Part shown: piece after piece, positions 3,350 through 27,463 of the stretch
Layout of the letters: the number at the start of each line of letters is the position of its first letter
How positions within the stretch are numbered: the stretch's first letter is position 1
DNA from: a virus
Direction: 5' to 3' (one strand)
Length of the DNA stretch: 27,463 nt
IMG/VR virus record: IMGVR_UViG_3300043419_000081
Coordinates: 1 to 27,463 of that record
Notes under the pieces: model-generated
The model's input: the letters and a program-made list of their open reading frames with translations, nothing else
What the model was told of the DNA's origin: nothing
The model's database searches: none
Made by a program: the position numbers and the translations under genes

Positions 3350-3375
3350 GCCCAGCCAAGTGCTGGGCTTTTTTT
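3350..3375 (+). terminator. Rho-independent terminator after scaffold gene
   Basis: GCCCAGC (3350-3356), a 5-base loop and GCTGGGC (3362-3368) form a perfect 7-bp GC-rich stem, followed by seven T (3369-3375). It separates the portal/scaffold transcript from the major capsid gene, so the capsid gene probably has its own promoter in the 3376-3554 leader. Confidence 0.9.
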
Positions 3376-3418
3376 CGTTTTGCGTTTTTTAAAAAATAGT
3401 GTAAAACAGCATCAAGGC

Positions 3419-3436
3419 ATATCAGGCTGATATCAG
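3419..3436. promoter_or_regulatory. 7-1-7 palindrome upstream of the capsid gene (operator candidate)
   Basis: ATATCAG-G-CTGATAT (3419-3433) is a perfect inverted repeat with a one-base centre. It overlaps a second palindrome CTGATATCAG (3427-3436), so the half-site ATATCAG occurs twice in tandem 11 bp apart, one helical turn. The layout matches the ATATCGC-A-GCGATAT palindrome at 23531-23545. It lies in the 231-base gap between scaffold terminator and capsid gene. That it is a protein-binding site is inference from symmetry and recurrence. Confidence 0.55.
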
Positions 3437-3508
3437 ACTGACCCTTACCACTGCGGATGCAGACGTTTAGGCTAACGTAAAAGGCAAGCTAAGACCCCAT
3501 CTATGGGC

Positions 3509-3522
3509 ATATCGTGGCGCAA
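3509..3522 (+). promoter_or_regulatory. 14-base element shared with the RHH-gene leader
   Basis: ATATCGTGGCGCAA occurs here, 32 bases upstream of the capsid ATG, and again exactly at 23614-23627, 16 bases upstream of the RHH gene. Both copies read in the direction of the downstream gene and both lie in intergenic leaders. The shared half ATATCG also occurs in the palindrome at 23531. It could be a phage promoter core or an operator; no good sigma-70 -35/-10 pair was seen around it. One 14-base match in 27 kb could arise by chance, so position is the main argument. Confidence 0.45.
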
Positions 3523-3554
3523 AACAATCTTATCAAACTATTAAGGAGTATAAC

Positions 3555-4397
3555 ATGAGCGTATCATTATCAAACGCTTTCGTTACCCTGTTTGATGCAG
3601 AAGTCAAACAAGCATTCCAAGGTAAGGCTATGCTTGTTGGTGCTGTGCGTCAGCGTAGAGGTGTCGAAGGCTCAACAGTAAAATTTCCTAAAGTTGGTCG
3701 TGGTGTAGCTACAGCTCGCATTACGCAAACTGATGTAACCCCAATGAACGTAGGCTTCAGCTCAGTGACTTGCACACTGCAAGACTGGAATGCAGCTGAG
3801 TATTCAGACATTTTCTCCCAGCAAAAAGTAAACTTTGACGAGCGTCAAGAACTCGTACAAGTTGTAGCTTCTGCAATGGGTCGCAGACAAGACCAGTTAA
3901 TTCTGGATGCGCTAGCTTCTTCTGGCACTTCATTGACAGTTGCTAACGGTATTGGCGGTACTACCACCAATATGAACTTAGCTAAACTGCGTGAAGCAAA
4001 GCGTTTGTTAGATAGAGCAAACGTACCTGCTGAAGGTCGTAACATTTTGATCCATGCAAATGGTTTATCTAACCTGTTGTCTGAGACAGCTGTAACTTCC
4101 TCTGACTTCAATAGCATCAAGGCATTGGTTCAAGGTGAGATCAACACGTACTTAGGTTTCCAATTCCATGTATTAGGTGATCGCTCTGAAGGTGGTTTGG
4201 CTATCGATGGTTCTTTAGATCGTACCTGCTTTGCATTCCACAAAGATGCAATTGGTTACGCTGAAGGCATTGGTATGCGCTCAGAAATTAACTACATTCC
4301 TGAGAAGACATCTTGGTTAGTAAACCAAGTTTTTAGCGCTGGCGCTATAACCATTGATGCGGAAGGTATTGTTCAAATTACCTGCCGTGAAACTTAA
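3555..4397 (+). CDS. Major capsid protein
   Basis: A 280-residue protein that I recognise as a podophage major capsid protein, expected to adopt the HK97 fold and build the icosahedral head. Typical features are an N-terminal LSNAFVTLFDAEVKQAFQG helix, a VEGSTVKFPKVGRG strand segment, and a C-terminal IPEKTSWLVNQVFSAGA followed by the closing IVQITC strand. The length is usual for the short T7-like/cyanophage-like capsid families. The start is well supported by AAGGAG about 8 bases upstream. It follows a terminator and a 179-base leader with two candidate regulatory elements, consistent with separate strong late expression. No frameshifted minor form is visible at the stop, which is followed by a new AGGAGG for the next gene. 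Confidence 0.93.
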   Translation: MSVSLSNAFVTLFDAEVKQAFQGKAMLVGAVRQRRGVEGSTVKFPKVGRGVATARITQTDVTPMNVGFSSVTCTLQDWNAAEYSDIFSQQKVNFDERQELVQVVASAMGRRQDQLILDALASSGTSLTVANGIGGTTTNMNLAKLREAKRLLDRANVPAEGRNILIHANGLSNLLSETAVTSSDFNSIKALVQGEINTYLGFQFHVLGDRSEGGLAIDGSLDRTCFAFHKDAIGYAEGIGMRSEINYIPEKTSWLVNQVFSAGAITIDAEGIVQITCRET

Positions 4398-4409: not shown

Positions 4410-4685
4410 ATGCCTTTTAATGCAGATGGCTTTGCAACAATAGCCGCCAGTAAAGCTGGTAACGCACCGTCAATTTATTCTTATCGTACAGCTGACACAC
4501 AGGCAACTGTGAATACCGCTGGCTACTTTAACAGCGTTGCATCACTGTTAAAAGTTGGTGATGTTTTGTTTGTTTACGATAGCACTACTCCTAGCTTGGT
4601 ATTGACTTACGTCAACCAAGTAACGACAGCTGGTGTAGTTGACATTGCAGACGGCACAACTGTAACCGCAACTGATACAGACTAA
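4410..4685 (+). CDS. Small capsid-adjacent protein (putative decoration or minor head protein)
   Basis: A 91-residue Ala/Thr/Val-rich protein with no lysine-rich or membrane segment. It has an IYSYRTADTQATVNTAGYF motif near residues 22-40 and a SLLKVGDVLFVY strand. Proteins with the same YRT-D-xAT(V/I)-x-TAGYFN signature sit right after major capsid genes in other podophages and are thought to be structural; the precise role is unproven. A near-perfect AGGAGG lies 5 bases upstream of the ATG, implying high expression together with the capsid protein. It is followed by a terminator-like hairpin. Confidence 0.8.
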   Translation: MPFNADGFATIAASKAGNAPSIYSYRTADTQATVNTAGYFNSVASLLKVGDVLFVYDSTTPSLVLTYVNQVTTAGVVDIADGTTVTATDTD

Positions 4686-4704: not shown

Positions 4705-4738
4705 AGGGCTGCTCTTGCATAACAAGGGTAGCCCTTTA
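4705..4738 (+). terminator. Terminator-like hairpin after the capsid genes
   Basis: AGGGCTGCTCTTG and CAAGGGTAGCCCT pair around a CATAA loop (4705-4735) with one mismatch and one G-U pair. Only three T follow, so it may be an attenuator or RNA-stability hairpin rather than a complete terminator. It sits between the highly expressed capsid genes and the tail genes. Confidence 0.65.
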
Positions 4739-23520: not shown

Positions 23521-23549
23521 AATGTATTTGATATCGCAGCGATATGCAA
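23521..23549 (-). promoter_or_regulatory. Candidate promoter of the recombination operon
   Basis: On the minus strand TTGCAT (23549-23544) and TACATT (23526-23521) are 17 bases apart and the second lies 54 bases before the recombinase ATG. The match to sigma-70 consensus is partial (3/6 and 4/6). The palindrome at 23531-23545 covers the spacer and touches the -35, where a bound repressor would block RNA polymerase. Confidence 0.4.
23531..23545. promoter_or_regulatory. 7-1-7 palindrome in divergent region (operator candidate)
   Basis: ATATCGC-A-GCGATAT is a perfect inverted repeat with a one-base centre, between the divergent recombinase and RHH genes. It has the same symmetry and outer bases (ATATC...GATAT) as the palindrome at 3419-3433. 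Its half-site also begins the 14-base element at 23614. The adjacent RHH protein is an obvious candidate ligand; this is inference. Confidence 0.6.
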
Positions 23550-23613: not shown

Positions 23614-23627
23614 ATATCGTGGCGCAA
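23614..23627 (+). promoter_or_regulatory. 14-base element, second copy
   Basis: ATATCGTGGCGCAA, identical to 3509-3522, placed 16 bases before the RHH start and 83 bases after the start of the 23531 palindrome (90 bases in the capsid leader). It precedes GGGAGGT, the ribosome-binding site of the RHH gene. Confidence 0.45.
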
Positions 23628-23643: not shown

Positions 23644-23829
23644 ATGGAAAATAAGTACAACACGTTACTAATTAGGCTACGTCCTGAGACCAGAGCATTA
23701 CTTGATCGTGCAGCTGGCGAACAGCGCAGATCTAGAGCGTCAATCATTGACGAGTTGCTGCTGGACAGCCTTAAACAGCGCTATAACAGCACACATGACA
23801 GGCTAAATAAGATGCTGGGTGCAGTGTGA
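23644..23829 (+). CDS. Ribbon-helix-helix DNA-binding protein (regulator or antitoxin-like)
   Basis: A 61-residue protein with a clear Arc/MetJ-like fold pattern. A short strand (residues 5-13, YNTLLIRLR) is followed by helix A (ETRALLDRAAGEQ), a turn at RRSR and helix B (ASIIDELLLDSL). A 17-residue basic tail ends LNKMLGAV. GGGAGGT lies 5 bases upstream of the ATG at 23644. It is the first gene of the plus operon and adjoins palindromic sites typical of RHH operators, so it probably autoregulates. The stop overlaps the GNAT start (GTGA), an arrangement also used by RHH/GNAT toxin-antitoxin pairs. It is shorter than usual DUF1778 antitoxins. Confidence 0.8.
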   Translation: MENKYNTLLIRLRPETRALLDRAAGEQRRSRASIIDELLLDSLKQRYNSTHDRLNKMLGAV

Positions 23830-26493: not shown

Positions 26494-27266
26494 CGCAGTT
26501 CAACATACCACCCAAGCCTACCTTAAAGAAGAGGAAGACTCCACCAAGGAAGACGCAGTACGCAATCATGCCTTTAAGAGCGCTGACAGATAAGCGTATC
26601 ACTGACAGGAATCGTACTGTACTTGCCATGATGTCATCATTTGCTAACAGGGCTGGAATCACTTGGGTAACTCAGAAAAGGATTGGTGAGGAGTTCAAAG
26701 TAACACCACAGGCTATCCAGAGAATGCTTGGCAAGCTTAGAGACTGTGGGTACATCGAGAAGGTATCAGGTTACAAAGTTGGCATCAAAGGTATCACTTA
26801 CAGGATCATCTACGATCCCAAGATCAGCGCACAGGATGCAGTTTCAATAGCAGGTAACGGCATAGATTTAGAGGTAGAGCAGTACAACCAAGAGGATCCA
26901 GTAATGACATTTAGATCACATCAACCACAGCCGATAGGCGCATTCTTAAAGGACATTCCAATGGCAAAACCAAAGCAGCAGAATAAAACACAACAGCAGG
27001 AGGTTGAGCAAGTGCAGAAGACGTATAAGGGAGAAGACTATAGTCGAGAGTTCTCTCGCACAGCGCAAGCCATCTGCGGAGTTGAGCGCTTGCCAAATGA
27101 GCAAGATAAGCAAATAGCTGCCGAATTAGCAACACATCAGGTAGATATGGATCAGTTTAAGCAGATGCTAGTGGAATCAATCAGTTGGCACAAGGCAACA
27201 GGTAAGCAACCACCAGCAGGACTGGGTTATTACAGGCAAGTAGCGCTTAGTTTACGTAAAGCCTAG
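26490..27266 (+). CDS. Replication-initiator-like winged-helix protein
   Basis: A 258-residue protein. The basic N-terminus (PPKPTLKKRKTPPRKTQYA) is followed by a winged helix-turn-helix: IMPLRALTDKRITDRNRTVL (about 26-46), WVTQKRIGEEFKVTPQAIQR (helices 59-78) and LRDCGYIEKVSGYKVGIKG (wing). A linker rich in Gln and Lys spans about 140-180. The C-terminal helical domain (about 185-258) contains LATHQVDMDQFKQMLVESISWH. The plan resembles lambda O-like phage replication proteins, which bind an origin and recruit helicase. The last gene before a non-coding stretch with strong inverted repeats, which would suit an origin. Role is inferred; a transcription regulator is possible. Confidence 0.75.
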   Translation: MTQFNIPPKPTLKKRKTPPRKTQYAIMPLRALTDKRITDRNRTVLAMMSSFANRAGITWVTQKRIGEEFKVTPQAIQRMLGKLRDCGYIEKVSGYKVGIKGITYRIIYDPKISAQDAVSIAGNGIDLEVEQYNQEDPVMTFRSHQPQPIGAFLKDIPMAKPKQQNKTQQQEVEQVQKTYKGEDYSREFSRTAQAICGVERLPNEQDKQIAAELATHQVDMDQFKQMLVESISWHKATGKQPPAGLGYYRQVALSLRKA

Positions 27267-27447
27267 GTAGTGGGTGTGTCTGTACAAAAACGAATGGTTC
27301 GATTAGAGTTTGTACAGGCACAATACGTTATCATTATAGTACGTTACGATATCAATTAATTAACGCTGTGTTATCAAAGTGGCATTATCCCCCCCCCACC
27401 CCACCACCTATCGATGGGGGGACTCACACAATTTTTCCTAGGAAATC
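27267..27447. other. Non-coding region with C9 tract (origin or promoter candidate)
   Basis: After the inverted repeat comes an AT-rich part with TACGTTA twice, 16 bases apart (27324-27330, 27340-27346). A partial match to the 14-base element lies on the minus strand at 27353-27339 (GATATCGTAACGTAC, 11/15). Then follow nine C (27389-27397), CCCC and CC runs, and six G (27416-27421), which could pair with the C runs. No convincing gene is seen. The location after an initiator-like gene suits a replication origin or a promoter region for the next gene. Confidence 0.45.
27275..27322. repeat. Large inverted repeat with TGTACA cores
   Basis: TGTGTCTGTACAAA (27275-27288) and TTTGTACAGGCACA (27309-27322) are complementary over 14 bases with one G-T pair, separated by 20 bases. 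Each arm contains the self-complementary TGTACA. No T-tract follows, so it is not a normal terminator. An operator or origin-associated structure is possible. Confidence 0.7.
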
Positions 27448-27463
27448 ATGACTAGTCTAATTA
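27448..27463 (+). CDS. Start of a gene cut by the window edge
   Basis: ATG at 27448 follows TAGGAAATC, with AGGA 5 bases upstream, and reads MTSLI before the window ends. The reading direction continues the plus operon. Too little is visible to say more. Confidence 0.4.

Follow-up and report, generated by a model that had tools for sequence, protein, structure and literature searches.

A conserved structured RNA in the capsid leader

The leader of the major capsid protein gene in the viral DNA analyzed here almost certainly encodes a conserved structured RNA, as judged by comparison with related leaders, and this RNA is predicted to form the very 5′ end of the capsid mRNA (Table 1). The DNA, hereafter called the window, comprises 27,463 bases and is stored in IMG/VR as a linear virus record. 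Genes for the portal protein, a T7-type capsid assembly protein, the capsid, and tail proteins are followed by recombination and replication genes, and this gene order together with the capsid protein assigns the window to the small podoviruses. Its nearest named phage is Methylophilales phage MEP301, whose genome lacks both an RNA polymerase gene and a DNA polymerase gene according to its published description (PMC8024684). Relatives of the capsid protein are encoded on at least 599 stretches in IMG/VR.

Table 1. Features of the window discussed in the text
Feature	Position	Strand	Description
Intrinsic terminator after capsid-assembly gene	3350-3375	+	Stem GCCCAGC/GCTGGGC, followed by T7 run
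Sigma70-like promoter	3379-3407	+	TTTGCG (3379-3384), 17 nt, TAAAAC (3402-3407); ends 6 nt before the RNA
Conserved structured RNA	3414-3526	+	First ~113 nt of the predicted capsid mRNA; covariance model 83.1 bits, E 7.4e-19; covariation
Domain 1 (predicted)	3415-3445	+	P1 3415-3417/3443-3445; module GG-CAUA-U / A-C-CC; P1a 3422-3425/3438-3441
Hairpin P2 (predicted)	3451-3462	+	CTGC/GCAG; 99.7% of cells can pair; both partners vary in 3 of 4 pairs
P3 hairpin and pseudoknot (predicted)	3463-3485	+	P3 3471-3473/3483-3485; pseudoknot C3464-G3477, G3465-C3476
Domain 4 (predicted)	3488-3518	+	P4 3488-3489/3517-3518, 3493-3494/3512-3513; hairpin 3496-3499/3504-3507; second module copy
Major capsid protein gene	3555-4397	+	PF19821 Phage_capsid_2, E 2e-75
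91-aa gene directly after capsid gene	4410-4685	+	
Hairpin between 91-aa gene and tail tube gene	4705-4737	+	13 bp, short T run
Early-region palindrome ATATCGCAGCGATAT	23531-23545	+	Probable DNA operator, not part of the RNA; in 18/18 close RHH relatives
Early-region second element	23614-23627	+	Probable degenerate operator copy; adjoins RHH start at 23644

For a first alignment, the leaders of 78 IMG/VR loci and of the window were compared, and 44 sequences were aligned with MAFFT without being fitted to a model; a second alignment contained 88 distinct sequences fitted to a covariance model. The predicted fold agreed with both levels of sampling: 95.4% of the cells could pair in 41 sequences, with changes on both sides in 16 of the 26 pairs, and 96.9% in the 88 distinct sequences, with compensatory changes in 17 of the 26 pairs. 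Cells changed on both sides numbered 331 compared to 106.8 ± 9.1 in 500 shuffles, the rows being related and the shuffle counts therefore not to be read as probabilities. The covariation score of the 88 distinct sequences was 0.389 and fell to 0.066 or less when the partners were slid, and when 60 non-redundant rows were scanned across the whole alignment, the seven pairs with the highest mutual information were all predicted pairs. Covariation support is thinner for the pseudoknot than for the other helices: all of its cells are paired (100%), one pair being C-G in 86 and A-U in 2 of the 88 sequences and the other pair being invariant. A candidate additional pair at alignment columns 51-58 (C-G in 40 and A-U in 18 of 60 rows) was left out of the model and may reflect a lineage effect. 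Folding of the window leader by itself was no better than that of shuffled sequences (z +0.73), and its lowest-energy fold was partly unlike the consensus; the case for the RNA thus rests on comparison and not on energy.

In the consensus, the 5′ domain comprises AGG, C-N-N-A, a short hairpin, R, C, and CCU, and the 3′ domain comprises GC, GG, a hairpin, CNNA, CC, and GC. The two domains share an internal-loop module, which may be akin to the C-loop motif. In the 5′ domain, 5′-GG-CNNA-Y-3′ lies opposite 5′-R-C-CC-3′; the 3′ domain has the same two strands with the hairpin at the opposite side. The string GGCNNAY occurs at least twice in 74 of the 78 leaders, and both copies in the window are spelled GGCATAT-C. 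Between the domains, the loop of P3 contains CG(U), which can pair with an ACG just upstream to form the pseudoknot. The window positions of the domain 1 helices were taken from the alignment of leaders. In the window, the two inner pairs of P3 are A-A, and, as read from the sequence, the pseudoknot could be extended in this lineage to five pairs by A3463-U3478, U3466-A3475, and U3467-A3474. The loop letters of P2 showed no conservation across the aligned leaders; a CsrA-type GGA loop was ruled out, as these letters vary.

Distribution and novelty of the RNA

The covariance model gave a single strong match in the window, at the capsid leader, with the next best match at 7.0 bits (E 1.4). Among the loci that had been fetched by their capsid genes, 77 of 78 were matched, the sole miss (L030) being a contig that starts within the capsid gene, past the leader; two further weak matches in this set (15.6 and 15.3 bits) lay within E 1, and no second strong copy was present. 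All 64 loci fetched by the RNA pattern regardless of their genes were matched as well, one of them cut off at a contig end, and in a mixed set the model recognized 99 of 100 loci and missed the SI2-like locus L339. The RNA is followed by a capsid gene in 42 of 43 loci, with the start codon 27 to 33 nt downstream, and in the 43rd (L225) only 38 nt of sequence are left. MEP301 also carries the RNA (84.3 bits). As this phage of an OM43 host is in culture, the function of the capsid leader is directly testable, and the covariance model can be used to annotate the leader in many viral contigs.

No match to the model was obtained for the SI2-like and Manatee-like capsid leaders (46 loci; best 9.8 bits, E 1.4), nor for the phages SI2, HTVC010P, Skadi-3, Lederberg, Baldr, and Hodr, one Manatee Spring phage, and three Vibrio phages. 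The exact RNA pattern was absent from bacterial genome contigs, and a BLASTN search of the RNA against phages returned nothing meaningful. Rfam 15 yielded 0 matches in the whole window, the best chance-level matches of the RNA reaching 15.2 and 14.1 bits compared to thresholds of 37 and 70.7. By these comparisons, the leader is a structured mRNA leader outside the catalogued RNA families. In the open literature, we found no description of a structured RNA preceding phage capsid genes, and the word capsid does not occur in a paper on 104 metagenome motifs (PMC2864571). According to this paper, manA, wcaG, and other metagenome RNA motifs are likewise structured leader RNAs of marine phages, but manA and wcaG precede metabolic genes, whereas the RNA described here precedes the capsid gene.

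A predicted separate transcription unit for the capsid gene

The RNA lies directly behind elements that point to a new transcript. Of 69 distinct upstream regions, 50 (the window included) have a terminator similar to that of the window in the last 200 nt before the RNA. In 66 of these 69 regions, the best -10-like hexamer ends 5 to 7 nt before the RNA, compared to a mean of 13.5 and a maximum of 23 for shuffled sequences. The promoter listed for the window is the site scored in L007 and L008; automatic scoring picked another one for the window. From this spacing, the 5′ end of the RNA is the predicted transcription start of a sigma70-like promoter. A strong hairpin is found at the position after the 91-aa gene in most of the relatives listed, and in Vibrio phages the hairpin at this position has a full T run. 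With a promoter and terminator upstream and a hairpin downstream, the capsid gene and the next gene would constitute a unit that has a dedicated start and ends in a structured element.

In the gene 10 segment of phage T7, the capsid gene likewise has its own promoter in front and is followed by a terminator-like hairpin, which is the arrangement predicted here. T7 uses its own RNA polymerase and is not known to have such a leader fold. The capsid segment touches on the question of how these abundant small podoviruses, the nearest isolate of which (MEP301) is described as lacking an RNA polymerase, favor the capsid over other late proteins.

Two other types of leader element were considered and discarded. 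An attenuator was rejected because the spacer that separates the RNA from the capsid gene has no conserved T runs. A leader peptide was rejected as well, since start codons are missing in 14 of the 78 leaders and reading frames and lengths vary among the rows listed.

The repeated letters of the capsid leader mostly belong to the RNA fold

An earlier note on this DNA, made from its letters, had drawn attention to matching palindromes and a shared 14-mer in the capsid leader and in the divergent early region. Every string it named is present: the palindromes ATATCAGGCTGATAT at 3419-3433 and ATATCGCAGCGATAT in the early region, the identical 14-mer ATATCGTGGCGCAA at both 3509-3522 and 23614-23627, a second half-site ATATC at 3430 in the capsid leader, and a weaker version GATATCGTAACG on the minus strand starting at 27353. 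The third large gap, at the end of the record (27266-27463), contains a C tract together with a short inverted stretch and is possibly an assembly edge or a replication region.

The two palindromes with matching outer letters are above chance, as ATATC-N5-GATAT occurs at 2 sites in the window compared to 0.03 expected. The 14-mer, which the note itself allowed to be a chance match, is not above chance. The window contains 33 different repeated 14-mers (both strands counted, many of them overlapping), and the match is therefore no evidence by itself. The 14-mer is present in at least 119 IMG/VR stretches, and the contexts read were mostly unrelated sequence; an extra copy in close relatives lies within an acetyltransferase-like gene, where it reads D-I-V-A-Q.

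In the capsid leader, the palindrome falls within domain 1 and the 14-mer begins inside the module of domain 4. The ATATC copies at 3419 and 3509 occupy the same position of the module GGC-NNA-Y, and the copy at 3430 falls within the tip of hairpin P1a, which is variable. The spelling of the module differs among relatives (GGCATACC, GGCCCACC, or GGCTCACC), which argues that the repeated half-site is an RNA module and not a DNA site. The paired palindromes thus very probably do not represent an architecture shared by the capsid and early regions, since the capsid-side copies of ATATC are parts of the conserved RNA fold. The early region gave no match to the covariance model, and its interpretation as a second copy of the RNA was rejected for this reason.

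A scan of relatives for ATATC-N5-GATAT, as proposed in the earlier note, had a divided outcome. The motif is conserved at the early site in close relatives, but in the capsid leader it is kept in only 3 of 78 relatives (L003, L005, and L007) and is already gone in L004 and L008. At the capsid promoter, relatives thus do not keep a palindrome at the same place, and the capsid leader is, on this comparison, no conserved member of a DNA operator system. Since the palindrome is intact in the closest relatives L003, L005, and L007, it may nevertheless serve as an additional operator within the narrow lineage of the window.

Putative DNA operators of the early region

The early region plausibly holds a pair of DNA operators for a putative binding protein. 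The two probable copies are located between a serine recombinase gene and the RHH gene, whose product showed a weak Pfam match (TacA1, E 0.034). The promoter region of the RHH gene differs in kind from that of the capsid gene. In a set of 67 RHH relatives, all 18 with 92 to 100% identity carry ATATCGCAGCGATAT at the same place, whereas the exact form is found in 0 of the 49 others, some of which show similar TATC...GATA letters. The second element reads ATATC(G/T)TGGCG followed by CAA or ATAT and is a full ATATC-N5-GATAT in L423 and L426.

The shorter motif TATC-N5-GATA was counted 17 times in long capsid loci compared to 4.4 in shuffled sequences (maximum 8). Beyond the span of the window, it reappears behind the terminase gene, close to a promoter-like stretch, in about ten of the 29 long capsid loci. 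These sites, ~5 kb upstream of the capsid gene, were seen in L016, L019, L027, L035, L038, L044, L058, L063, L072, and L074, and perhaps serve the same regulator as the early region. Because of the early operator pair and this recurrence, a DNA operator system likely exists in these phages.

The proposal of one regulator for early and late promoters holds up on the early side, where all 18 close RHH relatives retain the palindrome. Its extension to the capsid promoter, with ATATC-N5-GATAT and the 14-mer as operators common to both regions, is very improbable in our assessment. Both palindromes are real, the early one is conserved, and the terminase-side recurrence would suit such a system. Against it stand the loss of the capsid palindrome in nearly all relatives, the 14-mer being just one of many repeats in the window, and the fact that the letters of the capsid leader obey RNA pairing rules.

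Possible functions of the capsid-leader RNA

We tentatively favor a role in cis, in which the RNA would seal the 5′ end of the capsid mRNA and keep this mRNA abundant and capsid expression high. The upstream terminator would close the preceding transcript, and transcription from a host-type sigma70 promoter would start afresh exactly where the RNA begins; downstream of the fold would come a spacer without structure, then the ribosome-binding site and the capsid gene. With about 1 free base, the folded 5′ end would be a poor target for RppH and RNase E, and the other end of the mRNA would be protected or defined by the hairpin that follows the 91-aa gene. The start site, the stabilization, and any bound partner are parts of this scheme that we infer. 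P1 begins at base 2 of the predicted transcript and has only 3 bp as the outermost helix.

In E. coli, the ompA and papA mRNAs, which carry 5′ stabilizers, are mRNAs of abundant proteins, and a plain hairpin suffices for mRNA stabilization. Invariant internal loops and a pseudoknot would therefore call for more than shielding of the 5′ end. The ompA and papA stabilizers resemble the capsid leader in that the mRNA of an abundant protein begins with folded RNA and leaves few bases free at its 5′ end, but they are generic hairpins, whereas the capsid-leader fold is elaborate and has invariant unpaired bases. A review (PMC3997798) states that 5′ secondary structure stabilizes mRNA and that RppH and RNase E favor single-stranded 5′ ends. 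As the RNA lies in cis, occurs as a single copy, is linked to the capsid gene, and is predicted to be the very 5′ end of the mRNA, stabilization of the mRNA is the simplest reading. It is also possible, though with less confidence, that the RNA is a capsid-specific riboregulator, the twin module of which binds a partner (a metabolite, host RNA polymerase, or a protein of the ribosome or the phage) and thereby sets the timing and amount of capsid synthesis in a large group of aquatic podoviruses without their own RNA polymerase.

The put RNA of phage HK022 works via the zinc-binding domain of RNA polymerase to suppress transcription termination. An analogous action, in which the nascent capsid leader binds host RNA polymerase and makes it resist pausing and termination along the late operon, is the strongest rival to stabilization, because HK022 putL, too, is a folded RNA with which a phage transcript from a host-type promoter begins (PMC9378689). 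According to this source, putL folds from about +3, just after the host promoter, and acts without a phage protein. The fold here begins where transcription of a long late operon is predicted to start (+1), this operon contains a conserved hairpin with a weak T run, and the related phage MEP301 lacks its own RNA polymerase according to its description (PMC8024684). We nevertheless consider a put-like action rather unlikely. HK022 put consists of two stem-loops of about 70 nt with copies at both early promoters, whereas the capsid-leader RNA, at ~110 nt, contains two GG-CNNA-Y/R-C-CC modules, two hairpins, and a pseudoknot and has one strong copy per genome, always at the capsid gene and at none of the other operons of the window, which is a fragment. 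Furthermore, the + strand of the window beyond the RNA showed no strong terminator inside the operon.

Alternatively, the fold could be a sensor that switches capsid synthesis upon binding a metabolite or a protein, either ribosomal or encoded by the phage. The invariant unpaired bases in the twin module and the pseudoknot suggest specific recognition, and in the more distant phages L327-L338 one arm of the leader is complementary to the ribosome-binding site, as a switch needs. In the family of the window, however, an expression platform is not visible. Complementarity between the ribosome-binding site and the leader did not exceed that of shuffled sequences, with mean z values of +0.21 (n = 29) and +0.91 (n = 10), by which a translational switch through such pairing was rejected for this family, and the spacer contains no conserved terminator. 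A sensor thus appears unlikely to us.

Small RNAs can also act apart from an mRNA, as does the pRNA of phage phi29 in packaging. The compact conserved fold next to the capsid gene could in principle be cut from the leader and act elsewhere, for example in packaging, but neither a terminator nor a conserved processing signal was found in the spacer of the aligned leaders, and a link to packaging was not apparent. This origin of the conservation seems extremely improbable.

Other capsid-leader families

Two further groups of capsid leaders were observed. The SI2-like leaders (L339-L381) do not match the RNA model and show little covariation; they are strongly conserved (GCAGACCC, GGCACCC, and AGGCCC) and follow a terminator and a promoter-like stretch. 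The Manatee-like leaders (L327-L338) form a different family, in which the complementarity of the ribosome-binding region to the leader arm extends in L329 up to 13 bases without a mismatch. The z value of this complementarity was below -2 in 13 of 21 Manatee-like leaders, and changes on both sides were found in 10 of the 21 predicted pairs (11 sequences). These leaders seem to use a similar module, GG-NNNA-Y/R-C-CC.
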